64,000 nucleotides of DNA from Hyphomicrobium sp. NDB2Meth4 (GTDB lineage: Bacteria; Pseudomonadota; Alphaproteobacteria; Rhizobiales; Hyphomicrobiaceae), in contig NZ_FPEJ01000005.1 of assembly GCF_900117445.1 (NCBI RefSeq), positions 124,001 through 188,000 of the forward strand, read 5' to 3'. Under the pieces are notes generated by a model. The model was not told the DNA's origin, made no database searches, and saw only the letters and a list, made by a program, of their open reading frames with translations. Both the position numbers and the translations under genes were made by a program. Of the stretch, positions 52,901-64,000 are shown one piece after another (position 1 is the stretch's first letter; each line of letters opens with the position of its first letter).

Positions 52901-53256
52901 TCCAGGGCTCCCTTGCGCCACTCGTAGATGAAGCCGACGGTCAACACGCCGAGGAAGATCATCATCGCCCAGAATCCGTAAAGGCCGATGTCGCCGAACG
53001 CGACCGCCCACGGGAACAGGAACGCGACCTCGAGGTCGAAGATGATGAAGAGGATGGCGACGAGGTAGAACCGCACGTCGAACTTCATGCGCGCATCATC
53101 GAATGCGTTGAAGCCGCATTCGTACGCGGACACCTTTTCGGGGTCCGGGTTGTTGACGGCGATCATGAATGGCACCGCCATGAGAGCCACGGCGATGAAG
53201 AGCGCAATGCCGATGAACACGGCGATCGGCAGGTAATCGTAGAAGAGCTGGTCCAT
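52891..53256 (-). CDS. nuoA: NADH-quinone oxidoreductase subunit A
   Basis: Three-helix membrane subunit of complex I and first gene of the nuo series. Blocks are [20 protein letters not shown] with the conserved loop Cys, [20 protein letters not shown] and [10 protein letters not shown]. The length is 121 residues. Its promoter should be in 53257-53450, but no convincing -35/-10 is visible. Confidence 0.96.
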
Positions 53257-53582
53257 GCGAGCTTGCCTGGGGCGTGCCTGGGATCGGTTAGGCTGGCGTG
53301 TCGTTTTAGACTGAGAGGCCGCGATACGGCCAGCCGCTACCGCGCAGTCCGCTGCGCTGCAATAACGACTATTTGTGTGTTAACGCACCCGCCTCGCCCG
53401 CGCAACCCGCGCGCGCCGGCAGCGGATCACATGATCCGCCGCTATATGCCGCTCTGGGTCAGTTCCAGGTGTGGAGCAAACGGCGCCAGCATTGGACGCA
53501 CAGCACCGTGCGCAGGCGCAGCGGCCAGAAGGGCGCGCTGCCGCAGGTGGGCTGAAGGCCGATTTGGATAAAGAAGGATTAG
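53257..53582. other. Gap between nuoA and the island
   Basis: It contains the nuoA leader and promoter region. Several open frames are present on both strands, but none has a ribosome binding site or family resemblance. I find no RNA gene other than the tRNA fragment that follows. Confidence 0.5.
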
Positions 53583-53627
53583 TGGCGCGAGAGACGGGAC
53601 TTGAACCCGCGGCCTCCGGCGTGACAG
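53583..53627 (-). other. 3' fragment of tRNA-Asp(GUC), probable attL of the island
   Basis: On the reverse strand the sequence has CCA (53585-53583), discriminator G, acceptor strand CTCTCGC, a complete T arm GCGGG-TTCAAGT-CCCGT, a variable loop, the 3' anticodon stem GCCGG and the loop CTGTCAC with anticodon GTC. The 5' anticodon stem, D arm and 5' acceptor strand are missing. This is what remains when an integrase uses the tRNA 3' half as its target. Confidence 0.8.
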
Positions 53628-53643
53628 GACAGAGGCCCAAATC

Positions 53644-53673
53644 ACCCTTAGATACCCTTAGCTACCCTTTACC
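53644..53673. repeat. Three phased 10-bp repeats next to the att core
   Basis: ACCCTTAGAT (53644), ACCCTTAGCT (53654) and ACCCTTTACC (53664) follow each other with exactly 10-bp spacing, one helical turn. The position 17 bp from the att core suggests arm-type binding sites for the integrase or excisionase. Confidence 0.6.
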
Positions 53674-53824
53674 TCGATATTTCCTCTGCTTACCCGAAAA
53701 CACCCCCCGACATAACCACCCTATTCCCCATTCATAACCACCTCCGTTTCCCGCCGCGTGCTGACCTATTGCTGACCCGTTTCAAATGCCCCCTTATGAC
53801 CCAACCTCAAACCGGGAGCAGCAC

Positions 53825-55180
53825 ATGGCAGACAACTTTACCCAACGCACCATCGAAGCCCTTCAAGCCGATCCCAACAAAGATACCTTTCTCTGGAGCT
53901 CCGATCCCCCGGGGTTTGGTATCCGCGTCAAACGGTCTTCCGGCCTCAAGTCCTTCATCGTCCAGTACCGCAACAAATATAACCAGTCCAAACGCCTTAC
54001 GATAGGCCGCTACGGCATCCTCACCCTCAAGGACGCCCGCGACCTCGCCAAGGCCGCCCTCGCCAAGGTCGCCGCTGGCCTCGATCCCGTCGAAACCGTC
54101 AAAAAAGATAAAGCCGCGCTCACCGTGCGCGACATGTGCGACCTCTATTTCGACCACGCCGAGCAGGGCATACTCCTCACCAGAAACGGAACACCCAAGA
54201 AGCACGCAACCCTCTCCGCCGACAAAGGCCGCATCGAACGGCACATAAAACCCCTCATCGGTTCCATCCCTCTACCTGAGCTGTCCTTCGCCGATGTCCA
54301 GCGCATGCACCACGGCATCGTCACCGGCAAAACCGCCCTCGAGGAAACCCGTCCCGGTGTCCATATACGCGTAACCGGCGGAGCCGGAGCCGCCGCCAAG
54401 ACCGTCAAGCTCCTCAGCGCCATCTGCAATTACGCCCAGCAGCACCGCCTCCTAACCCAGAACCCGTGCACCAACATCAAGGTCAAGCCCGACGGAAAAC
54501 GCACCCGACACCTCACCCCCGCCGAATACAAGTCACTCCGTCTCGCTATCACCAACACCGCCGTCAATGGCTCTTTTCCTATGCACGCCCGCGCCATCAT
54601 CGCCCTGGCCCTCACCGGGTGCCGGAAAACCGAACTCCTGTCCCTCCATGAAAACGACGTCCGCGCCGACTGCCTCCGCCTCCGGGAAACCAAAACATCC
54701 AAACCCGGGCAACCCGAATACCGCCCCTGCGGCGACACGGCGCTCGCCTACCTCAATTCCCTAAAAACAGGAAAAACGGATTGGCTCTTTCCTTCCCCCA
54801 CCAAAGACGGCCCCACGGTCAATGTGCGCAAATTCATGGCCGGACTCTGCCAGGCCGCAGACATCGAAGGCGTATCCAGCCACACCCTACGGCATAGCTA
54901 CGCGACCGTAGCCAACGAACTCGGCTACAGCGAATACATCATCGCAGGCCTCCTCGGACACAGCCGCACATCGGTCACCGCCACATACGCCCACCAAGTG
55001 GATCATGTCCTCAAATCAGCGGCCGACCGCGTCTCAGCCGAAATAGCCGAGCGCATGGGTCTCAACATCATTCTTCCCGAGTCTTCTCCTCAAGCCAGCC
55101 CGCCACATCCTCGGCCGCATACAGCACCTTCGCCTTTCCCCCACGGCCAAAACGAAAATAGCGCGGACCTTCACCCTTGA
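53825..55180 (+). CDS. Tyrosine integrase (P4-type, DUF4102/SAM-like N-terminus)
   Basis: Site-specific recombinase that inserts and excises the island. The N-terminal arm-binding domain has LWSSDPPGFGIRVKRSSGLK and RLTIGRYGILTLKDARDLAK. A SAM-like core-binding domain lies around residues 105-200. The catalytic domain shows Arg in LALTGCRKTELLSL, the H-x-x-R box as SSHTLRHSYATVANELG, GLLGHSRTSVTATYAH with the second His, and the nucleophile Tyr in ATYAH. ATG 53825 (MADNFTQRT) has GGGAGC upstream and gives 451 residues. Its 3' end overlaps an excisionase-like gene on the other strand by 113 bp. Confidence 0.93.
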   Translation: MADNFTQRTIEALQADPNKDTFLWSSDPPGFGIRVKRSSGLKSFIVQYRNKYNQSKRLTIGRYGILTLKDARDLAKAALAKVAAGLDPVETVKKDKAALTVRDMCDLYFDHAEQGILLTRNGTPKKHATLSADKGRIERHIKPLIGSIPLPELSFADVQRMHHGIVTGKTALEETRPGVHIRVTGGAGAAAKTVKLLSAICNYAQQHRLLTQNPCTNIKVKPDGKRTRHLTPAEYKSLRLAITNTAVNGSFPMHARAIIALALTGCRKTELLSLHENDVRADCLRLRETKTSKPGQPEYRPCGDTALAYLNSLKTGKTDWLFPSPTKDGPTVNVRKFMAGLCQAADIEGVSSHTLRHSYATVANELGYSEYIIAGLLGHSRTSVTATYAHQVDHVLKSAADRVSAEIAERMGLNIILPESSPQASPPHPRPHTAPSPFPHGQNENSADLHP

Positions 55181-55274
55181 GCCGCAAAACCTCCATCGCG
55201 CGCGGAGATGCCCTCAGCATCTCCGCCACCTCGGCACTCGTCAGAAATTTCGGAAACCGTCCCCCCTCACTCAA
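55068..55274 (-). CDS. AlpA/excisionase-like DNA-binding protein (distal of tandem pair)
   Basis: Small MerR-type helix-turn-helix protein: FLTSAEVAEMLRASPRAMEV, then GPRYFRFGRGGKAKVLYAAE and DVAGWLEEK. I place the start at a TTG overlapping the upstream stop (TTGA), which gives 68 residues; an ATG at 55295 is an alternative. It is a close paralogue of the gene before it. Likely roles are excisionase or regulator of the integrase, whose 3' end it overlaps antisense. Confidence 0.7.
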   Translation of the reverse strand: MSEGGRFPKFLTSAEVAEMLRASPRAMEVLRLKGEGPRYFRFGRGGKAKVLYAAEDVAGWLEEKTREE

Positions 55275-55474
55275 ACCTTGAACTGCTCCGCCCAAGCGAG
55301 AACATCCTCCAGCTTATAAATCACCTTAGCCTTGCCCCCCGAACCAAACCGTAGGTACGGCGGCCCGCGCCCTTCCAGACGCATCTTCTCCAAAGACCGC
55401 GGCTTATACTTCAGCATCTCAGCTACCTCCGCAGTGCTCAGGAACACCGGGTAATTCTTTTCACCCTCATCCAT
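55271..55474 (-). CDS. AlpA/excisionase-like DNA-binding protein (proximal of tandem pair)
   Basis: 67 residues from ATG 55474: FLSTAEVAEMLKYKPRSLEK, then GPPYLRFGSGGKAKVIYKLE and DVLAWAEQF. This is the helix-turn-helix of AlpA/Xis-type proteins. The open frame reaches a TTG at 55501. It overlaps the next gene's start and is probably co-transcribed. The pair suggests duplication followed by divergence of an excisionase or regulator. Confidence 0.75.
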   Translation of the reverse strand: MDEGEKNYPVFLSTAEVAEMLKYKPRSLEKMRLEGRGPPYLRFGSGGKAKVIYKLEDVLAWAEQFKV

Positions 55475-55563
55475 CCCTTTGAACCGCCCCACGCTCACCA
55501 AAAATCACTTCACCACCCGACCCACCCACTGCTATCCTTCACTCAGCAGCTTTCAGGACCAAC

Positions 55564-56058
55564 ATGAACCCCACCGCACAACTCACGGCCGCCGAACGGG
55601 AATTGAACGCGGCCCTTGCCACCTTCAATATCGCGCGGCTTAGCCTCAACACAACACTTTCGGGCGTCGGCGCGCGGGAAGGGGCCTCCGACCGGCTCAT
55701 CAGTCACACCGAGGAATACGGTGTCGACCACACCCTTTCCCAGCTGCGGAAGAACCCCTCCACCTTCGACCTCTCCGGTCCCATCCCCGAAGGCGCCCTG
55801 GCGCAACTGAAGAACCACCTTACCCGCGCCCGCGATGCCAACGAAGGCGTCGACCTTGCCATGGCCAAGCGCGAGAAGCTGGCAACCGCCGCCGATCCTT
55901 CGCGGCCCAAAGCCTTGATGGTCTTCGGCAGGCAGGTGTTCTTCGACCCCGACGCCGGCACCGCCCATGACCGGGACACCGGCACCGTCAGCCCCGCCAC
56001 CTTCGAAAACGTCCAAACCAAGGAACCCGACCGCAAGCGCGACCGCGACCGCAACTGA
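55564..56058 (+). CDS. Uncharacterised island protein
   Basis: 164 residues, soluble, mostly helical: an N-terminal helix (TAAERELNAALATFNIARLS), a middle block QLRKNPSTFDLSGPIPEGAL, then LTRARDANEGVDLAMAKREK and a small beta region KALMVFGRQVFFDPDAG. It ends in a highly charged tail (DRKRDRDRN). I do not recognise the family. A strong hairpin follows the stop. Confidence 0.6.
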   Translation: MNPTAQLTAAERELNAALATFNIARLSLNTTLSGVGAREGASDRLISHTEEYGVDHTLSQLRKNPSTFDLSGPIPEGALAQLKNHLTRARDANEGVDLAMAKREKLATAADPSRPKALMVFGRQVFFDPDAGTAHDRDTGTVSPATFENVQTKEPDRKRDRDRN

Positions 56059-56072
56059 CCCCCCATGCAAAC

Positions 56073-56092
56073 GGGGAGGCCAAAGCCTCCCC
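56073..56092 (+). terminator. Terminator-like hairpin
   Basis: GGGGAGGC(56073-56080)/GCCTCCCC(56085-56092) with a CAAA loop lies 15 bp after the stop of the uncharacterised gene. It is perfect and stable, but no T tract follows immediately. Confidence 0.5.
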
Positions 56093-56210
56093 GCGCGGAA
56101 CTCTATTTTCTGCCTACCCCTGAACTCCCATCCGACAATCCCCACACGGGCCACTTGCCCCGCAGATTCCCTTGTGAGATACGCGCTCCAACCACATCAC
56201 GGAGGCGCGC

Positions 56211-56264
56211 ATGAACAAATACATCAAACCAGAGCGCATCAGCCTCAAACTCCACCCCGACCGG
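56211..56264 (+). pseudogene. Truncated gene start, probably nuclease-like protein
   Basis: ATG 56211 has a GGAGG site and reads MNKYIKPERISLKLHPDR. From memory this matches the first residues of a proteobacterial family of predicted nuclease-like proteins that continues ELxExWxQ. After residue 18 the frame becomes low-complexity and unlike any protein, so I infer that the gene was cut by the insertion carrying the transposases. The remainder is not seen elsewhere in the window. Confidence 0.4.
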
Positions 56265-56427
56265 CTTTGCACAATAAGCTCAAGTTCGCACAAAAACCCT
56301 AGCATCTGCACAAAAACTCCCCTCACCCAGCCGCACAACCGCAAACCGACGGGTCACACTTTTTCCTGGAACAATTCCCGGTTCATATCGTTGCAACCCC
56401 GTGATGTCGCATTTCATGGAGGGTTCC

Positions 56428-56904
56428 ATGCAACCGTTTGTCCAGATATCGCACGAGGAGCTGACTCAGCTGAGGGAGAGATTGAAAGCTCTCGAGGAGG
56501 AGCGGTCAATTCTGCTTGGCTCGATACGCTTCATCGAAGAGAGATTCGCAGCCCCCCATGATTTGAGCCAGCGCGAGCCGAACATCGCGGCCCCGAGCAC
56601 GTCGGCTCAGCCTGATGATGTCGCTGATCTGGAGGATCTACCTCCTGAAGCTCTGGAGACGCTAGGATTGTCCGAAGCTGTTCTCGAGATTGCTCGTAAG
56701 TATAGGCGTCCGATGAAGGCCAAGGGATACATGGCCTGCTTACCCAAGGTCGGCTTCAATCGAGAGGTCGAATACCAGAACGTCTACAATGCGCTTGTTC
56801 GGATGAGCAAAAAGAAGCGCCTTACCAGAACAGCAGACGCGAAATTCTCTCTTCCCGATGACGGAAAATCATCCTGGAATGGATCCGCACAATTGCGGCG
56901 GTAA
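56428..56904 (+). CDS. Coiled-coil and winged-helix-like protein upstream of transposase
   Basis: 158 residues from ATG 56428, which has GGAGGG upstream. Residues about 8-40 form a coiled coil (ELTQLRERLKALEEERSILL). A linker rich in Pro, Ser and Asp follows. Residues about 90-145 look like a winged helix: KAKGYMACLPKVGFNREVEY, then QNVYNALVRMSKKKRL. It lies 83 bp upstream of the transposase on the same strand, so it may be its DNA-binding partner or regulator. The family is not recognised. Confidence 0.6.
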   Translation: MQPFVQISHEELTQLRERLKALEEERSILLGSIRFIEERFAAPHDLSQREPNIAAPSTSAQPDDVADLEDLPPEALETLGLSEAVLEIARKYRRPMKAKGYMACLPKVGFNREVEYQNVYNALVRMSKKKRLTRTADAKFSLPDDGKSSWNGSAQLRR

Positions 56905-56987
56905 GATTCAAACGCCTCTTCTGGGTTCAAACCAAGCCGCACACGGTCGCACCACCATTCGTGCTGCTAGTAAAGGAGCGTCATCCA

Positions 56988-58037
56988 ATGCCGTCAAAAA
57001 AAGGCCGCCCATCTCAAAAACTGCCTCCCGAGGATCACGACCATTCAAAACCGCCACGCCGCGTCCGAACCTCTTGCCCGCCAAGAGCGTCTGGGCGCCT
57101 ACGCAAAACCTATCGACAGAATTGGCCTGCTTACAACGCCGCTCAGACATATGAAAAAGCACAATTTCAATCGTTGCTGTCAAAACTTACGGAAGGTTTG
57201 GAGCACCCGAAACAACGCGTGAATGGGCGCCCGCGCATCCCTTTTAAGGTGGCGATGTTCTGCGCGGCCTACAAAGTGTATTCTACCTTTTCCGCGCGGC
57301 GGTTCATGACTGATCTCCGGGAGGCGCATAAGAGTGGTTTGATAACGGTGCTACCACATTTCAATACAGTACTTAACTTACTCGAAGACGCGACGATTAC
57401 CCCCGTTCTAAAAGAGCTTGTAGTCATAAGCAGCTTGCCTCTGCGGGGCATAGAAACCTGCTTCGCCATCGATTCTTCCGGATTCACTGCGCCGCTCTAC
57501 ATTGATGACGATGCGGACAATGCAAGCGCCGATCGCAGGCAACATGGTTGGGTCAAGGCCCATGTTATGTGCGGGGTGAAGACCCACATTATAACCGCCG
57601 TAGACATTCGGGGGCCATACTCTGCCGACACAAACTCTTTCCCATGCCTTCTAAAGAAAACCTCAGAATCGTTTTGTGTAAGGGAGGTCAGCGCCGACAA
57701 AGCGTACTTTAGTCGCGCGAATTTCGTCTTAGCAGAAAAAATCAAAGCCCGTCCTTATATTCCATTCAAGAGCAACGCCACGGGGTTGGGACCTCCGCAA
57801 ATGGAAAAAATGTATCATCATTTTCAATTGAGGCGAGATGATTTCATGCGGCATTACCATAAGAGAAGCAATGTCGAAACCGTATTCTCCACATTGAAGC
57901 GAAAGTATGGGGCATTCCTTCGCAGCAAAAGCGAACACGCCATGGTCAATGAGGTTCTTCTACGGGCTGTCTGTCACAACCTATGCGTCCTTATTCAAGA
58001 GGCGCAAGAATTAGGGATCAAACCAGAACTCGAGTAG
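56988..58037 (+). CDS. DDE transposase without SWIM domain
   Basis: 349 residues from ATG 56988, with AAGGAG upstream. The RNase H-like core carries D162 in CFAIDSSGF, D237 in VREVSADKAYFS and E297 in HKRSNVETVFSTLKRKYG. It is related to IS4/IS5-type DDE transposases. The first 38 residues are basic and Pro-rich. It is a clear paralogue of the next transposase; the three catalytic residues are spaced identically. Codon use is much less GC-rich than in the backbone, a sign of transfer. Confidence 0.85.
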   Translation: MPSKKGRPSQKLPPEDHDHSKPPRRVRTSCPPRASGRLRKTYRQNWPAYNAAQTYEKAQFQSLLSKLTEGLEHPKQRVNGRPRIPFKVAMFCAAYKVYSTFSARRFMTDLREAHKSGLITVLPHFNTVLNLLEDATITPVLKELVVISSLPLRGIETCFAIDSSGFTAPLYIDDDADNASADRRQHGWVKAHVMCGVKTHIITAVDIRGPYSADTNSFPCLLKKTSESFCVREVSADKAYFSRANFVLAEKIKARPYIPFKSNATGLGPPQMEKMYHHFQLRRDDFMRHYHKRSNVETVFSTLKRKYGAFLRSKSEHAMVNEVLLRAVCHNLCVLIQEAQELGIKPELE

Positions 58038-58085
58038 GCTAATGCGTGTATCCTGACAGAAGCGGCGACCCAGCCACCCTCGGGG

Positions 58086-58268
58086 CTATGTTTTTTCGTC
58101 TGAGGCTCTACGCTTCGGCTCGCTTTCCTTGCTGACTTGCCTTGGGCGGTCCCAGTAGGGTGACTTACAGCGCGGGCAGACCTTTGGGTCACGCGCCTTT
58201 TCTCTTGGCAGCCATTCGTGCCCGCATCGCTCGCAGCGATAGCCCCATAGCTGAACCTTCTCCACCAT
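58086..58268 (-). CDS. Small zinc-ribbon protein
   Basis: 60 residues from ATG 58268 (MVEKVQLWGY). Two CxxC pairs, RCERCGHEW and KVCPRCKSPYWDRPR, form a rubredoxin-like zinc ribbon; the tail is charged. Similar short proteins occur widely in archaea and bacteria without assigned function. It is divergent from the SWIM transposase across a palindrome, so it may regulate it. The open frame to 58322 is probably not used. Confidence 0.7.
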   Translation of the reverse strand: MVEKVQLWGYRCERCGHEWLPREKARDPKVCPRCKSPYWDRPRQVSKESEPKRRASDEKT

Positions 58269-58329
58269 GCGGCGCTGTATATTCCTTCCGGGAATATACT
58301 TCAAGGTCATTGACGGCGACAACCTACTA

Positions 58330-58355
58330 GGGATATATACCTATTAGGTATACCC
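58330..58355. promoter_or_regulatory. Palindrome between zinc-ribbon and SWIM-transposase genes
   Basis: TATACC (58336-58341) and GGTATA (58347-58352) form a perfect inverted repeat with 5 bases between, extended by GGG/CCC. It is A+T-rich, lies 12 bp before the transposase GTG and could cover both promoters: a candidate operator. Confidence 0.5.
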
Positions 58356-58366
58356 AGGGCGTCGCC

Positions 58367-59596
58367 GTGCCTCAGACCTTGTCGCCGCGAGAAATTGCAG
58401 GACTGCAAATAGCCGCCATGGCACGGCTGAGGCGCCGCGGCGAATTTTGGCTGGTGCCATCGCATGGACAGGGGCGTGGTGGAAGCCCTCATAAAGTAAG
58501 ACCCCACCCAACAACCCCTCACTGCTCTTGCCCTGACCACACACTACACGGCGGAAAATGCAAACACATCTATGCTGTCGAATACGCGCGCCAACGAGAG
58601 AACGCCGTAGCAAACGACCCGCATGATGAAGCTGAAATTCCAGTCGCACCACCGCCTCGAAAAACCTATCCGCAGGCCTGGAAGGCCTACAACGCAGCGC
58701 AGACGCAAGAAAAGGCGATTTTCCAACACCTGCTTAAAGAACTCGTGCGCGACGTCGGTCTTGAAACCTCTGAGGCCTCTAATGGACGTCCGCGGTTTCC
58801 GCTCGAGGACGCCCTGTTTTGCGCATGCTTCAAGGTGTATGCGACCTTCTCAGCCCGCCGCTTCATGACCGACCTGAGGGACGCGCATGGAAAGGGCTAT
58901 ATTTCGTCGGTTCCGCACTTCAACACGATCCTCAACTACCTTGGCGCTGAGGCAACCACGTCCATTCTGATGGATCTTGTCGCGCGCAGCAGCAAGCCGC
59001 TGTCGGGGATCGAAACGGACTTCGCTGTCGACTCAACCGGGTTCTCTTCATCGCGGTTCGATCGCTGGTTTGATCATAGGCAGAAGAAGCTTCGTCAGGA
59101 GCACTCATGGGTGAAGGCGCACGCCGTTTGTGGCGTCAAAACGAACGTGGTGACCGCGGTTGTCATCGGTGAGAAAAATGCACCTGACGGCCGCCAGCTT
59201 CCGCAATTGCTGGCTAAAACCGCTGAGCATTTCACAATGCGTGAGGTGTCCGCGGACAAGGCGTACTCATCGTTCGCGAACCTTGATCATGTCGACCGTT
59301 ATGGCGCGACTCCCTTCATCGCATTCAGGCGCCATGTCAGTGGGCGTGGACCAAAGGTGTGGGAAAAAATGTTCCTCATGTTTCAGCTGGAGAGAGAAGC
59401 GTTCTTTGCGCACTATCACAAGCGCAGCAATATCGAAGCCTGTTTCTCCATGATCAAGAGAAAGTTCGGAGACAGCGTTCGAAGCCGACTACAGGTTTCC
59501 ATGAAAAATGAAGTGCTCTGTAAGATTATCTGCCACAATATCTGCGTGTTGATCCAGGAAGCGCATGAGCTTGGTATCGAACTAAAGTACGAATGA
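58367..59596 (+). CDS. DDE transposase with N-terminal SWIM zinc finger
   Basis: 409 residues from GTG 58367. Residues 1-80 hold a SWIM finger: C53 and C55 in HCSCPDHTLHGGKCKH, with C65 and H67 completing CxC-xn-CxH. The catalytic core follows with D222 in FAVDSTGFSSS, D297 in VSADKAYSS and E357 in HKRSNIEACFSMIKRKFG. Relative to the other transposase every catalytic residue is shifted by exactly 60, so the core has no net insertion and the SWIM module is the whole length difference. SWIM fingers bind DNA or protein; here it could set target choice or regulation. Confidence 0.85.
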   Translation: MPQTLSPREIAGLQIAAMARLRRRGEFWLVPSHGQGRGGSPHKVRPHPTTPHCSCPDHTLHGGKCKHIYAVEYARQRENAVANDPHDEAEIPVAPPPRKTYPQAWKAYNAAQTQEKAIFQHLLKELVRDVGLETSEASNGRPRFPLEDALFCACFKVYATFSARRFMTDLRDAHGKGYISSVPHFNTILNYLGAEATTSILMDLVARSSKPLSGIETDFAVDSTGFSSSRFDRWFDHRQKKLRQEHSWVKAHAVCGVKTNVVTAVVIGEKNAPDGRQLPQLLAKTAEHFTMREVSADKAYSSFANLDHVDRYGATPFIAFRRHVSGRGPKVWEKMFLMFQLEREAFFAHYHKRSNIEACFSMIKRKFGDSVRSRLQVSMKNEVLCKIICHNICVLIQEAHELGIELKYE

Positions 59597-60090
59597 CATA
59601 GCTGCGGGCCGTGCCGGCAGAGCTTCCGTGGGCAACTCCAATGCGGTTGTTTGCGCTCGCAATTGGAGTATTTGTCGCCCGCCACGGGGTTCACCTGCAG
59701 CAACGTTCGCCTATCTCGGCCCTCGGCGGTTCGTGCAGCAATTGCTGTCGCACCAAGTCGAGTCAGATTTTAGTCGCCCGGCTTTGCAGATATCCGCGTA
59801 CCTACGTGGCGACCGCGGATTAGCCAGGTTCGGCCAGCCAATATCTGACACGGGGAGCCGCAGCTGGGCAGCACGGCCTGTGGCCCTCGTGACGCAAACA
59901 CTCTTTGAACCGATCAGCGAGCTTATCTGTGTCCAGCACCTCGCCCAAGCTCTCAGCAAACGAAGGCCAATGCGTCATGGAATCGGGTGGGGGCTGTTGG
60001 CCCTCTGCATCCCCGACGTATGACAAGCGGGCGATTATCAGCGGCAGGCGGCCTCTATGCGACCGCCTGCAGAAAACCATCTATGGCGAA
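59597..60090. other. Gene-free stretch after the transposases
   Basis: I see no credible gene. Open frames on both strands (for example 59628-60023 forward and 59820-60080 reverse) lack ribosome binding sites and recognisable motifs. CTCCAAT at about 59635 and ATTGGAG at about 59661 form an imperfectly spaced inverted repeat. It may be decayed mobile-element sequence. Confidence 0.45.
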
Positions 60091-60342
60091 CTAATGCTGT
60101 CCGTGTCCGTGTCCATGGCGGTGGCCATGCCGATGCCTAAAGCCACGAAAGTGGTGGCGGTGGTGTCGAATGAAAAAGGGGATGTAATGCCGGTGACGGC
60201 TGTGAAGGCGCCGATGGACTTGTTGGAGCATGCCGTTCTCCAGCCCGACGGTACGCACAGCGGGGATCGGTGCGGCGTGAACGGATGTCGCCATCACTCC
60301 CAGTACGCAGACTAAGCCGCAAACCTTGATTGCGCTCAACAT
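60091..60342 (-). CDS. Exported His-rich small protein
   Basis: 83 residues from ATG 60342, with a perfect AGGAGG. A signal peptide (MLSAIKVCGLVCVLGVMATS, cleaved near VHA-AP) precedes a tail with about 20 histidines mixed with Arg and Gly, ending GHRHGHGHGQH. Such a tail should bind Ni, Zn, Co or Cu in the periplasm. It is the last of a reverse run that begins with the RND pump, so a metal buffering or delivery role is inferred. Confidence 0.7.
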   Translation of the reverse strand: MLSAIKVCGLVCVLGVMATSVHAAPIPAVRTVGLENGMLQQVHRRLHSRHRHYIPFFIRHHRHHFRGFRHRHGHRHGHGHGQH

Positions 60343-60563
60343 GATTTCCTCCTGACAACGCAACTTGGCCGCAAGCGAGCGATGCGTCGCTGAACGCTTG
60401 CAGCCAAGTTTCATATTGCACACCAAGCTGAAACCAGCCTGAACGGGCATTGAGGAACGGAGGATCGTCGCGAATGTCAGTGGGTGCGGGCGTCAGGAGG
60501 ATCTGAATACTAGGCGGCCCGCGCATCGCCGATTTCGCGTCGACGGAACCTATGCTTCAGCGC

Positions 60564-60833
60564 TTAATGGCCGTGAGCGTCCTTGATGCCCAGCAGCTTT
60601 TGAGCTTCTTTGAGCGCCGCTTCGCATTCCTCATTCTTCTTCGCCGTATGCATCTCCTCAGCAGTGGCTCGCGCGGCCTTCACTTTGGCCATGTCGCCAT
60701 CGCTCAGCTTCGCCGTTGCCATCGCCTTATCCACGGCGGCCATGTCTGCATCGCAATGATCGCCTGCTGCCATGGCAGGAATTGCGAGGCCGATTGCTGC
60801 CGCCGCAGCCAAGGTCAAGGTCAAGTTCTTCAT
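60564..60833 (-). CDS. Exported small helical protein
   Basis: 89 residues from ATG 60833, with GAGGAG upstream. A signal peptide (MKNLTLTLAAAAAIGLAIPA, cleaved after AMA) precedes a helical mature part with two cysteines (GDHCDAD and NEECEA) and a C-terminal DAHGH. The family is not recognised; similar short exported proteins occur beside metal-efflux genes. Its neighbours suggest a metal-related periplasmic role. Confidence 0.65.
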   Translation of the reverse strand: MKNLTLTLAAAAAIGLAIPAMAAGDHCDADMAAVDKAMATAKLSDGDMAKVKAARATAEEMHTAKKNEECEAALKEAQKLLGIKDAHGH

Positions 60834-60921
60834 AGTTGTCTCCTCTCAATTTGAGCCGAGCTTCCTGTGAGCTCGGCTCGTTGGTCAACTCTCTGTGTTA
60901 GTTTTTGTCCGAACGCTTGGC

Positions 60922-61164
60922 CTACCAGTTTCGGCCGTGACCATGGCCCCGGCGCGCGAACTTCAACCAGGGATTCCGAGCCCAGCGGTTGCGGACATGC
61001 CCGCGGCGTTCACGGTCCACGTGCCGCGAGTAGCCCCGGTCGTGATCGCGGGAGCTGTAACCACTGCGGTTGTGGTCTCCAGCCTGGGCTGCCGACGCAG
61101 CGATGCCTAGGGCGCCGCATCCTGTCAGAACGGCAAGCGCAAAAAGCGAGGGAGTGCGAAGCAT
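60922..61164 (-). CDS. Exported Arg/His-rich small protein
   Basis: 80 residues from ATG 61164, with GAGGAGA upstream. The signal sequence (MLRTPSLFALAVLTGCGALG, then cleavage near AQA-GD) also contains a TGCG that could be read as a lipobox. The mature part is rich in Arg, His, Gly and Tyr (SSRDHDRGYSRHVDRERRGH) and ends ARRGHGHGRNW. The family is not recognised. A metal- or polyanion-binding role is possible. Confidence 0.6.
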   Translation of the reverse strand: MLRTPSLFALAVLTGCGALGIAASAAQAGDHNRSGYSSRDHDRGYSRHVDRERRGHVRNRWARNPWLKFARRGHGHGRNW

Positions 61165-61382
61165 GGGAATTCTCCTCTTCGACAATATATTTGTTTAGTC
61201 GCCGAGTTATTCGGCCATTCCCTTTTTAATAGGCTGCGAATGTCCCTCACGTGAACTGCCCGTTCACCGTCAATTCATTGACCTGATGAGGGGCTGAATA
61301 AAATAGAAATGCGCGTGTTTTGCGGCGCCAAACTGAAATGAATCTGAATAACGAAGGCGAATTGCGATTTTATCCGGACAAC

Positions 61383-62285
61383 TTACTCGACGAGGCCAAA
61401 ATGCGCATTGTGGTCACGACCGCCGGGCTTGTAGTCCGGGCGCAGGCGACTAAGCTCCTGCCGCGCAGCGGTGGCGTCGCCTGCTTGCTCGTAGAGCAGA
61501 GCTCGGTCTGCGCGCGCATGGTCATCTTCGGGCGCGAGTTCGAGGGCCCGGTTCAAGTCAATGAGCGCCTGACCATCTTGACCTCTCTTGAGAAAGAGAT
61601 GCGCGCGACGATGATGCGCCTCCGCAAATGCCCCGCCGGCTTGAACGGACGCATTCATGTCAGATATCGCGGCGTCGAGCTGACCGGTTTTCTCGTAGGC
61701 GCGCGACCGATGGAAGTACGTCATGGCATGAGACGGGTTATGAGACAGCGCGCGTGTGAAGCTTATAATTGCGTCGGCGAATAGCCCCTGTGCCATCAGG
61801 GTCCGGCCCAAATTATCGAACACGACACCCCCGCCGATGCCGGGGTCGAGCAGGGCCGCAGTCTTGAAATCCTCTGTTGCGCTAGCCCAGAGATGTACCC
61901 GGGCGTTGATCAGCCCACGATTGTAGTAGGCAACCGCCAGCGTGGGATCGATGGCAATCGCGTAGTCCGAGTCGCCTACCGCACCTAAAATATCCCCCCG
62001 CGCAGCCCGGATCAGGGCACGCGCTGCACAGGCGAGCGCATTGCCGGGATCGATGCGGATTGACTTCGTTAGGAGCGTGAAAGCTCGGCGGAGGTCGCCG
62101 CCTCGACTTTGCGCGATTGCAAGGCTGTAGATGCGCTTACTCAGCGCGCGGTTCCTGGCGCGAGTAGGCGCTTCGGTAGGGTTGGCGCGTGTCGATATTG
62201 GAAAGAGCGAGTCTGCCAGCGAAAGCTGGGGAGCCACTACACAGACCGTGGCAACGATCGCGATTGCCAGCGCTTGCGCAAACAT
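61383..62285 (-). CDS. Exported tetratricopeptide-repeat protein
   Basis: 300 residues from ATG 62285, with GGGAGGAAAG upstream. A signal peptide (AQALAIAIVATVCVVAPQLS) is followed by about six TPR units, recognised by the W/L-G-Y-A-F-A-P spacing (for example ALACAARALIRAARGDILGA and AVAYYNRGLINARVHLWASA). TPR proteins are scaffolds. It lies 93 bp downstream of the RND pump gene, so it may assist that system. A forward open frame across 61320-61784 is a shadow. Confidence 0.8.
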   Translation of the reverse strand: MFAQALAIAIVATVCVVAPQLSLADSLFPISTRANPTEAPTRARNRALSKRIYSLAIAQSRGGDLRRAFTLLTKSIRIDPGNALACAARALIRAARGDILGAVGDSDYAIAIDPTLAVAYYNRGLINARVHLWASATEDFKTAALLDPGIGGGVVFDNLGRTLMAQGLFADAIISFTRALSHNPSHAMTYFHRSRAYEKTGQLDAAISDMNASVQAGGAFAEAHHRRAHLFLKRGQDGQALIDLNRALELAPEDDHARADRALLYEQAGDATAARQELSRLRPDYKPGGRDHNAHFGLVE

Positions 62286-62377
62286 CGCTTTCCTCCCCTT
62301 GCGGCACACTGCGCAGTCTTATGTGGCCCAATACCCTCCGCACTGCATTGGACGAGCGATGAGCATTGCGTGCAGCA

Positions 62378-64000
62378 TCATTCGGCGGCGAGGCCCGCGG
62401 CCGCGGGATCAACGGGACGCGGCTGGGCCAAAATGTAGCGCTTATAGAGCGCGGGAAGCACGATCAGTGTTAGCAGCGTTGCGGTGATCAAGCCGCCGAT
62501 GACCACAGTGGCGAGGGGCTTTTGAACCTCCGCTCCCGTGCCGGTCGCCAGCGCCATCGGCACAAAGCCGAGTGAGGCGACGAGCGCGGTCATGAGCACC
62601 GGCCGAAGACGCGTCATCGCCCCTTCGTAGATGGCATCTTCCCCCGGCTTCCCTTGTTCTCGTAGCTGGTTGATGTAGGTCACCATCACAAGACCATTGA
62701 GGACCGCGATACCGGACAGGGCAATGAACCCGACGGCTGCCGAGATCGAGAATGGCATGCCGCTGAGGTAGAGCGTGAAGATGCCGCCCGAAACCGCCAG
62801 CGGTACGCCGGAAAAAACGAGCAAGGCTTCGCGCACACTACCGAGAGCGGTGAACAGCATGAGAAAGATGACGAAGAAGCAGACAGGTACGACGATGAGC
62901 AGGCGGCTTTGAGCTGTCTGCAGGTTTTCGAACTGACCACCCCAGGTGATCCAATTACCGGGCGGGATCTTGACCTGGGCGTCGATCTTCTGTTGGGCCT
63001 CCTGAACGAAGGAGCCGATGTCGCGGCCGCGCACGTTCGCCTGCACGACAACGCGGCGTTTGCCATTCTCGCGGCTGATCTGGTTGGGGCCTTCCTCGAT
63101 GTTGAATGTGGCCAGTGTCTTAAGTGGCACGAAATTCGGGCGGCCGGGCCCCGCTGTGGGAATAGCGACCGGGAGATTCTGCAGTGTGTCGAGGTCATCG
63201 CGCAGACGATCGGGAAGGCGGACAAGGATGTCGAAACGCCGGTCGCCTTCAAACACAAGTCCCGTCTCGCGTCCGCCGACCGCGATGGAAACCACGTCAA
63301 GCACATCGCCGACATTGAGTCCGTACCGCGCGATTGCTGCTTTATCGAGTTTCACGTTGAGCATTGGCAGGCCCGTGGTCTGCTCGACTTTTACATCGGC
63401 CGCTCCCGGCACGGAGCGCAGCACCGAGGCGATCTTATTTGCGGTTTCTCCCAGCTCCTCGAATTTGTCGCCAAACACCTTCACTGCCACATCGCTGCGC
63501 ACGCCGGCGATGAGTTCGTTGAAACGCATCTGGATGGGCTGCGTATATTCGTAGTTGTTGCCCGGCAACTGGCCGACCGCCTTGGCGATCCTTTCGATCA
63601 GTTCGGCTTTGCTTTCTCCCGGATTGGGCCACTCGTCCTGCGGCTTCAACATGATGAATGTGTCGGATACGTGCGGCGGCATGGGATCGGCGGCCATCTC
63701 GGCCGTTCCCGTCTTGGAGAAGACGAACGCAACTTCGGGAAATTTGCTGACGGCGGATTCCACCTTCAACTGCATGTCGAGCGATTGCGTCAAGGAGGTG
63801 GAAGGAATGCGCATGGCGTGCATCGCCAGATTCTTCTCGTCCAGTGTCGGAATGAACTCCTGACCGAGGCGCGTGAACAGAAATAGCGACACGGCAAAGA
63901 AGCCGAGAGCAACGATGATTACGAAGCCTGTGTCCTCGAGCCCGGCCCGCAGCATCGGGGCATAGCGCGCCTTGGCGAAGCGGATAAAAAAGTTGTCCTT
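62378..64000 (-). CDS. CzcA/CusA-type heavy-metal RND efflux pump, C-terminal part (cut by window edge)
   Basis: Inner-membrane proton-driven transporter of the heavy-metal efflux family, working with a CzcB-like adaptor and outer-membrane channel. About 540 C-terminal residues are visible, and the frame continues past 64000 (reading KDNFFIRFAKARYAPM into the edge). Segments include FIPTLDEKNLAMHAMRIPST, a porter domain, GLPMLNVKLDKAAIARYGLN, NGKRRVVVQANVRGRDIGSF, then the helices GIAVLNGLVMVTYINQL and EGAMTRLRPVLMTALVASLG. Metal specificity cannot be decided because the charged TM4 residues lie outside the window. Confidence 0.9.
   Translation of the reverse strand, partial: KDNFFIRFAKARYAPMLRAGLEDTGFVIIVALGFFAVSLFLFTRLGQEFIPTLDEKNLAMHAMRIPSTSLTQSLDMQLKVESAVSKFPEVAFVFSKTGTAEMAADPMPPHVSDTFIMLKPQDEWPNPGESKAELIERIAKAVGQLPGNNYEYTQPIQMRFNELIAGVRSDVAVKVFGDKFEELGETANKIASVLRSVPGAADVKVEQTTGLPMLNVKLDKAAIARYGLNVGDVLDVVSIAVGGRETGLVFEGDRRFDILVRLPDRLRDDLDTLQNLPVAIPTAGPGRPNFVPLKTLATFNIEEGPNQISRENGKRRVVVQANVRGRDIGSFVQEAQQKIDAQVKIPPGNWITWGGQFENLQTAQSRLLIVVPVCFFVIFLMLFTALGSVREALLVFSGVPLAVSGGIFTLYLSGMPFSISAAVGFIALSGIAVLNGLVMVTYINQLREQGKPGEDAIYEGAMTRLRPVLMTALVASLGFVPMALATGTGAEVQKPLATVVIGGLITATLLTLIVLPALYKRYILAQPRPVDPAAAGLAAE

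Follow-up and report, generated by a model that had tools for sequence, protein, structure and literature searches.

A probable one-ended copy of a cargo-type SWIM-DDE transposon related to the IS5 superfamily in Hyphomicrobium sp. NDB2Meth4

The window, i.e. the whole stretch of 64,000 nucleotides analysed here (G000:C15:124001-188000 in a 4.08-Mb genome), contains a locus that we regard as a DNA transposon of the cargo type, related to the IS5 superfamily and present as a one-ended, probably immobile copy (probability about 0.7). Its components, from left to right, are a GGCTTTGC end (56263), a small upstream gene, a SWIM-less DDE transposase gene (ORF A), a zinc-ribbon gene on the minus strand and a DDE transposase gene with a SWIM finger (ORF B). 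All of these except ORF A would be the remains of one element; ORF A, diverged and SWIM-less, would most simply be left over from a second one. The locus is flanked by an integrase gene beside a tRNA on one side and by metal-efflux genes, assigned by reading, on the other. The preliminary description of this DNA dealt with the two transposase genes; the zinc-ribbon gene, the upstream gene and the left end, all missing from it, are the features that make sense of the locus.

ORF A (56988-58037, plus strand) encodes 349 amino acids from its ATG, its frame being open from a GTG at 56961. ORF B (58367-59596, plus strand) encodes 409 amino acids from GTG 58367 or 405 from TTG 58379, of which the TTG fits the starts in relatives. 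Both frames are intact, lie on the same strand and keep all catalytic residues (D162/D237/E297 and D222/D297/E357), as previously read, and the coordinates and domains of the tandem pair are confirmed. Pfam DDE_Tnp_1 matches ORF A with 65.2 bits and ORF B with 66.9 bits (cutoff 23), and SWIM PF04434 matches ORF B alone of the two (24.2 bits, cutoff 19.6, residues 50-75). The proteins, 53% identical over 313 residues, are indeed homologues that differ by their N-terminal module, and the catalytic spacing is D-75-D-60-E in both. The equal core spacing claimed earlier thus stands, but not the claim of a clean SWIM addition: the offset of 60 alone is insufficient for it, the first ~38 residues of ORF A have no alignment to ORF B, and small gaps lie between RKTY and the first D. 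An AlphaFold model of ORF B (19 sequences; pLDDT 81.1, pTM 0.67) predicts a DDE core and, at the N-terminus, a small unit of strand and helix; Foldseek against the PDB retrieves general DDE folds alone (best P element, E 7e-5, TM 0.24; Tn5, TM 0.30-0.35). GC is 0.503 in ORF A; the four genes of the locus (GC 0.50-0.59, GC3 0.54-0.67) lie below three neighbouring nuo-like host genes (0.63-0.65 and 0.85-0.90), which fits acquired DNA.

The upstream gene (56401-56904, plus strand) ends 83 nt 5' of ORF A and is possibly an accessory gene or regulator. It has no convincing match in Pfam, PHROG or PADLOC, and a single-sequence AlphaFold model of its product, poor overall (pLDDT 59), suggests a long N-terminal helix (residues 18-49). 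Genes at the equivalent position are present in loci L004, L006, L021 and L034. A conserved family of upstream genes was considered and rejected, as just L004, L021 and L034 match one another and the window gene matches none.

The zinc-ribbon gene (58086-58268, minus strand) lies 48 nt from ORF A and is divergent from ORF B. Its product possesses two C..C pairs and the motif CKSPYW, and 16 aligned sequences share 11 invariant columns. Present in one copy in its own genome, the gene is divergent and adjoins the DDE gene, as in the window, in 13 of 29 related elements delimited by their ends (see below). The protein occurs in 11 of 18 genomes searched, a set in which 7 had been picked because their transposases lack it; two copies each are present in G060 and in G070, where the second lies at C9:60204. 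It is likely an autoregulator of the transposase. The control region (58277-58355) contains two palindromes, GTATATTCC..GGGAATATAC at 58277-58299 and GGGATATATACC..GGTATACCC at 58330-58355, both read from the sequence. They are likely operators and promoters, and the zinc-ribbon protein would repress this shared region through them. Intergenic palindromes are also present in several other loci. A TAGTAATATAC-like motif (up to 2 mismatches) is found in 14 of 19 zinc-ribbon loci, the window included with 2 mismatches, versus none of 20 loci without the gene; it is missing in the other 5 zinc-ribbon loci. Its best match has 1.8 mismatches on average versus 3.6 in shuffled pieces. These counts include loci from which the motif had been read, shared descent may contribute, and locus starts are approximate. 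A zinc-ribbon homologue at L106:5902-6048 (42 bits) lies away from any transposase, so the protein may also act alone.

Other loci carry different candidate regulators. An XRE helix-turn-helix gene lies beside the transposase in L010, and L122 has a P63C-domain gene, with look-alikes, by reading, in L037 and L100. The transposase genes of L014 and L037 share 78% DNA identity in a match that starts at the start codon, with different upstream genes and promoters; regulator and promoter have hence been exchanged, which makes the two loci a natural experiment on such exchange.

That transposon ends might be found by comparing copies had been proposed before, and comparison of relatives yielded both ends and target duplications. 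The inverted repeats within window positions 53000-61000 resembled chance pairings, and it took the comparison of relatives to reveal the ends. Blind searches for inverted repeats in single loci exceeded their 30 shuffles in four loci only (L005, L013, L015, L016). The common GGCTTTGC start was recognised across the flanks of relatives and then tested with target duplications. In this way 29 elements of 2,140-6,688 bp (median 3,890) with GGCTTTGC-type ends and target duplications were delimited; genome collections supplied 12 of them and viral contigs 17. The duplication is exact over 9 bp in 24 elements and over 10 bp in four, and matches at 8 of 9 positions in one. With one best-scoring end pair kept per locus, 14 of 37 loci have an exact 9-bp duplication; the 10-bp duplications of L008 and L036, missed by the 9-bp rule, were added by reading. 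A second set of 31 loci added 13 further distinct elements, ten with an exact 9-bp duplication, L103 and L105 with 10 bp and L117 with 8 of 9 (L111, a duplicate of L110, was counted once). Reversed-pattern controls gave no 9/9 match in the 37 loci (one 8/9, L029) and none in the second set. Several of the loci without an end pair are short contigs or have short flanks.

The ends are asymmetric. In the best-ordered elements one end carries three direct copies of a ~10-bp site at +6, +24 and +44, and the other a terminal copy plus an inverted copy at +34. At the left end, the second site (about +24, up to 2 mismatches) is present in 16 of the 29 elements, the third (about +44) in 15 and both in 13; the inverted copy at about +34 of the right end occurs in 16. 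Eleven elements have neither extra left site within 2 mismatches, two of which (L010, L118) have direct copies at the right end instead. The ~10-bp motif has a TGCNCA core in 16 of 29 elements. The site variant differs among elements yet is common to the copies within one (e.g. L098, L103, L110, L114, L122), as would be the case for a binding site that co-evolves with a transposase reading it. The transposase would accordingly recognise multi-copy end sites, and the element would move as a unit together with its cargo. L122, with an exact 9-bp duplication besides its P63C-domain gene, lies with L094 and L096 on one 123-kb viral contig (IMGVR_UViG_3300037083_000054), which contains three copies of the family.

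The window copy has a left end only. This end (56263-56321, plus strand) consists of GGCTTTGCACAATAA and, from +25 and +45, the end motif twice more in direct orientation, with 2 and 1 mismatches, in the layout of relatives flanked by target duplications (+24/+44). None of 300 control pieces fits as well as its second motif copy. The end pattern alone has a single match in the 4.08-Mb genome, as has its backward control, and is not above chance; the claim of a left end therefore rests on the three-site layout and its position. Directly outside lies the 9-mer ACCCCGACC (56254-56262), a putative target duplication if a right end existed. A motif search for a right end (up to 3 mismatches in 11) followed by ACCCCGACC (up to 2 mismatches) found none as far as C15:223300, ~40 kb past ORF B. 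An exact TGTGCAAAGCC is present at C15:222365, ~42 kb from the left end, and its adjoining 9-mer has 5 mismatches to the one expected. The window copy has both the three-site left end and, divergent from its SWIM-DDE gene, the zinc-ribbon gene; each occurs in 13 of the 29 elements, and neither is universal. That both ORFs are intact with all catalytic residues counts against a dead relic, which need not keep them.

The SWIM finger had been taken as a novelty of ORF B, but it is the common form of the transposase family. By a simple motif test it is present at the N-terminus in 26 of 35 loci of the first scans; L016 carries a variant, and frameshifts alone make L015 and L017 SWIM-less. SWIM-bearing transposases span several bacterial phyla and Micrarchaeota. 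SWIM-less rows are scattered in a 35-row tree with strong support on just 12 of 32 inner branches, and the clustering of their labels does not exceed chance expectation (7 changes against a mean of 8.0 after shuffling; 127 of 500 shuffles gave as few). The direction of change is not settled by the tree; because the SWIM form is commoner, loss or replacement of the finger in ORF A is likelier than its gain in ORF B. Among the elements with SWIM-less matches that are flanked by target duplications, the full end layout is kept in L114, whereas L023 shows just the third site and L067 has neither; the finger is therefore not clearly tied to end layout. Such elements allow the role of an N-terminal SWIM finger in a DDE transposase to be asked.

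Within its own genome the family comprises ORF A, ORF B and one broken fragment with two stops (C15:208613-208789, L003), ~25 kb downstream of ORF B. Searches of 60 relatives including the genome itself, and of a sample of 398 genomes of its phylum, likewise including it (E 1e-20), found matches in this genome only. A scan of genome contigs yielded 29 loci, every record being titled MAG, from Planctomycetota, Acidobacteriota, Chloroflexota, Rokubacteria, Verrucomicrobia, Myxococcota, Micrarchaeota and others; binning errors could blur individual assignments. Viral contigs contributed 6 and later 36 loci, some contigs being common to both sets, and a search of viral contigs with P0001 returned two contigs, both already in the set. 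Four weak matches came from plasmids (24-27% identity) and none from phages. Of 347 genomes in the phylum of one carrier, 6 have matches, the carrier being one of them. Among 26 carrier genomes, 16 have just one match; with fragments counted, the others have two to six.

The nearest NCBI model for the transposase core is IS5_2 (NF033579, cutoff 140 bits), which none of 12 members passes (99.5-125.6 bits; P0002 120.7, P0001 105.5). The IS4/IS5 superfamily is characterised by the signature Y(2)R(3)E(6)K around the catalytic glutamate; Y350-R353-E357-K364, invariant in all 19 sequences compared, has this spacing. The terminal GGCTTTG of the elements presumably resembles the IS903 end. The IS903 group of the IS5 family shares the DDE_Tnp_1 core. 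The eight IS5/IS903 rows consulted in a published table all list a target duplication of 9 (PMC3281130); this size is found in 24 of the 29 relatives, with 10 bp in four and 8 of 9 in one, and the window copy, in which no right end was found, shows no duplication. The IS903 group differs in its length of about 1,050 bp, versus 2.1-6.7 kb with regulators and cargo, and the SWIM N-terminus and multi-site ends belong to the elements described here. Transporter IS (tIS), defined as IS-type elements with passenger genes (PMC9330008), resemble them in carrying such genes between their ends; the parts of that description consulted name no SWIM transposase, and in the present elements R-M genes are frequent cargo. 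Transposases of eukaryotic MULEs often possess a SWIM finger, and their target duplications, where given, are of similar size (8-11 bp; PMC6446971). MULEs belong to another transposase family by profile, with no IS256 or MULE model among the matches, and the present elements are prokaryotic with an N-terminal SWIM finger. No title among the literature matches listed, which cover neither ISfinder nor most subscription papers, concerns a SWIM-DDE insertion sequence of prokaryotes.

DNA-methyltransferase or restriction genes are present in 10 of the 29 elements according to Pfam and PADLOC scans of 40 chosen ORFs from 23 of them. L005, L006, L013, L019, L100 and L117 were outside the scan, so cargo counts are lower bounds. 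A methyltransferase is combined with an SfiI-like gene in L008, a BglII-like gene in L033 and a BstXI-like gene in L115; in L010 and L110 the methyltransferase has an Mrr-like part. Large N6-methylase proteins are encoded in L011, L036 and L116, a methyltransferase in L107 and a partial R-M gene in L114. In L115 (5309-9534, flanked by a target duplication) the BstXI-like endonuclease scores 347.6 bits, and the methyltransferase has an internal helix-turn-helix match. In L021 a DUF7014 gene contains an AbiJ domain that scores below threshold; L103 has a gene resembling MqsA and L023 one resembling HicB. The remaining scanned ORFs match helix-turn-helix, response-regulator, TPR or protease families, or nothing. 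No recognisable cargo was seen in the window copy.

The tandem pair itself is probably an accident. The preliminary description proposed a two-transposase element and named independent copies with separate ends as the finding that would speak against it; relatives in fact have one transposase each and are bounded by ends and target duplications of their own. Side by side, two family transposases occur in the window region alone (also listed as L073) among 124 locus files with a family DDE match, many of which overlap and whose flanks measure 1.5-10 kb. Candidate further pairs in L019, L052, L061 and L091 are frame pieces of single genes. Since no right end was found and ORF A lacks ends of its own, the pair is read as a compound relic. 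Compatible with a one-ended relic, and rated only a little short of an even chance, is a tandem formed when two once separate elements landed next to each other and lost their ends. The gene order fits two arrangements known from other loci, an upstream gene immediately before a transposase (L019, L110) and a divergent zinc-ribbon gene (the 13 of 29), and GC3 differs slightly between ORF A (0.54) and ORF B (0.62; z 2.1). However, just 48 nt separate ORF A from the zinc-ribbon gene, with no trace of ends, and upstream gene, zinc-ribbon gene and transposase follow one another in this order within single elements in L006, L021 and L034, which would leave ORF A as the only intruder.

A genuine two-transposase element, in which the SWIM-less protein would serve the SWIM protein as partner, inhibitor or end-selector on shared ends, is unlikely. 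It would accommodate the two open frames with catalytic residues, the position of ORF A close behind the upstream gene and the SWIM-less L023 and L067 within elements flanked by target duplications; against this stand the single side-by-side pair among the loci examined, the identity of only 53%, the missing second end and a sisterhood of ORF A and ORF B neither shown nor rejected (p-AU 0.374, 33 rows). Still less probable is the domestication also suggested earlier, in which the host keeps one or both proteins for a role other than transposition. A missing end, intact ORFs and the lack of another intact genomic copy would agree with it. Yet positive support is wanting: the gene is absent both from the 59 other relatives and from the phylum sample of 397 further genomes (E 1e-20), its GC lies below that of neighbouring host genes as if acquired, and no sign of host conservation is seen.

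The family with R-M cargo is of greater interest than the pair. We consider it an evenly balanced proposition that SWIM-DDE elements are a cross-phylum family of regulated cargo transposons, without description in the literature searched, that spread R-M and other defence or addiction genes. Their transposase would be controlled by a divergent, exchangeable small DNA-binding regulator (zinc-ribbon, XRE or KGG type), and their asymmetric ends, with three sites at one and two at the other, would co-vary with the transposase, the window copy decaying after it gained a SWIM-less transposase. R-M systems are known to move between genomes, often by an unclear vehicle; with defined ends, 9-bp duplications and R-M genes in 10 of 29 delimited copies, this transposon family offers a concrete, testable one.

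On its left the locus is preceded by tRNA-Asp (53583-53662, minus strand), which adjoins a tyrosine integrase and two HTH_17 excisionase-like ORFs (53786-55501). The transposon relic may sit inside an integrated island; 15-mers of the tRNA region do not recur downstream. To the right, the metal-efflux surroundings (60091-63955) contain, by reading, CzcA/CusA-like pumps, as does L081, and a small His-rich protein is encoded at 60091-60450 (minus strand).
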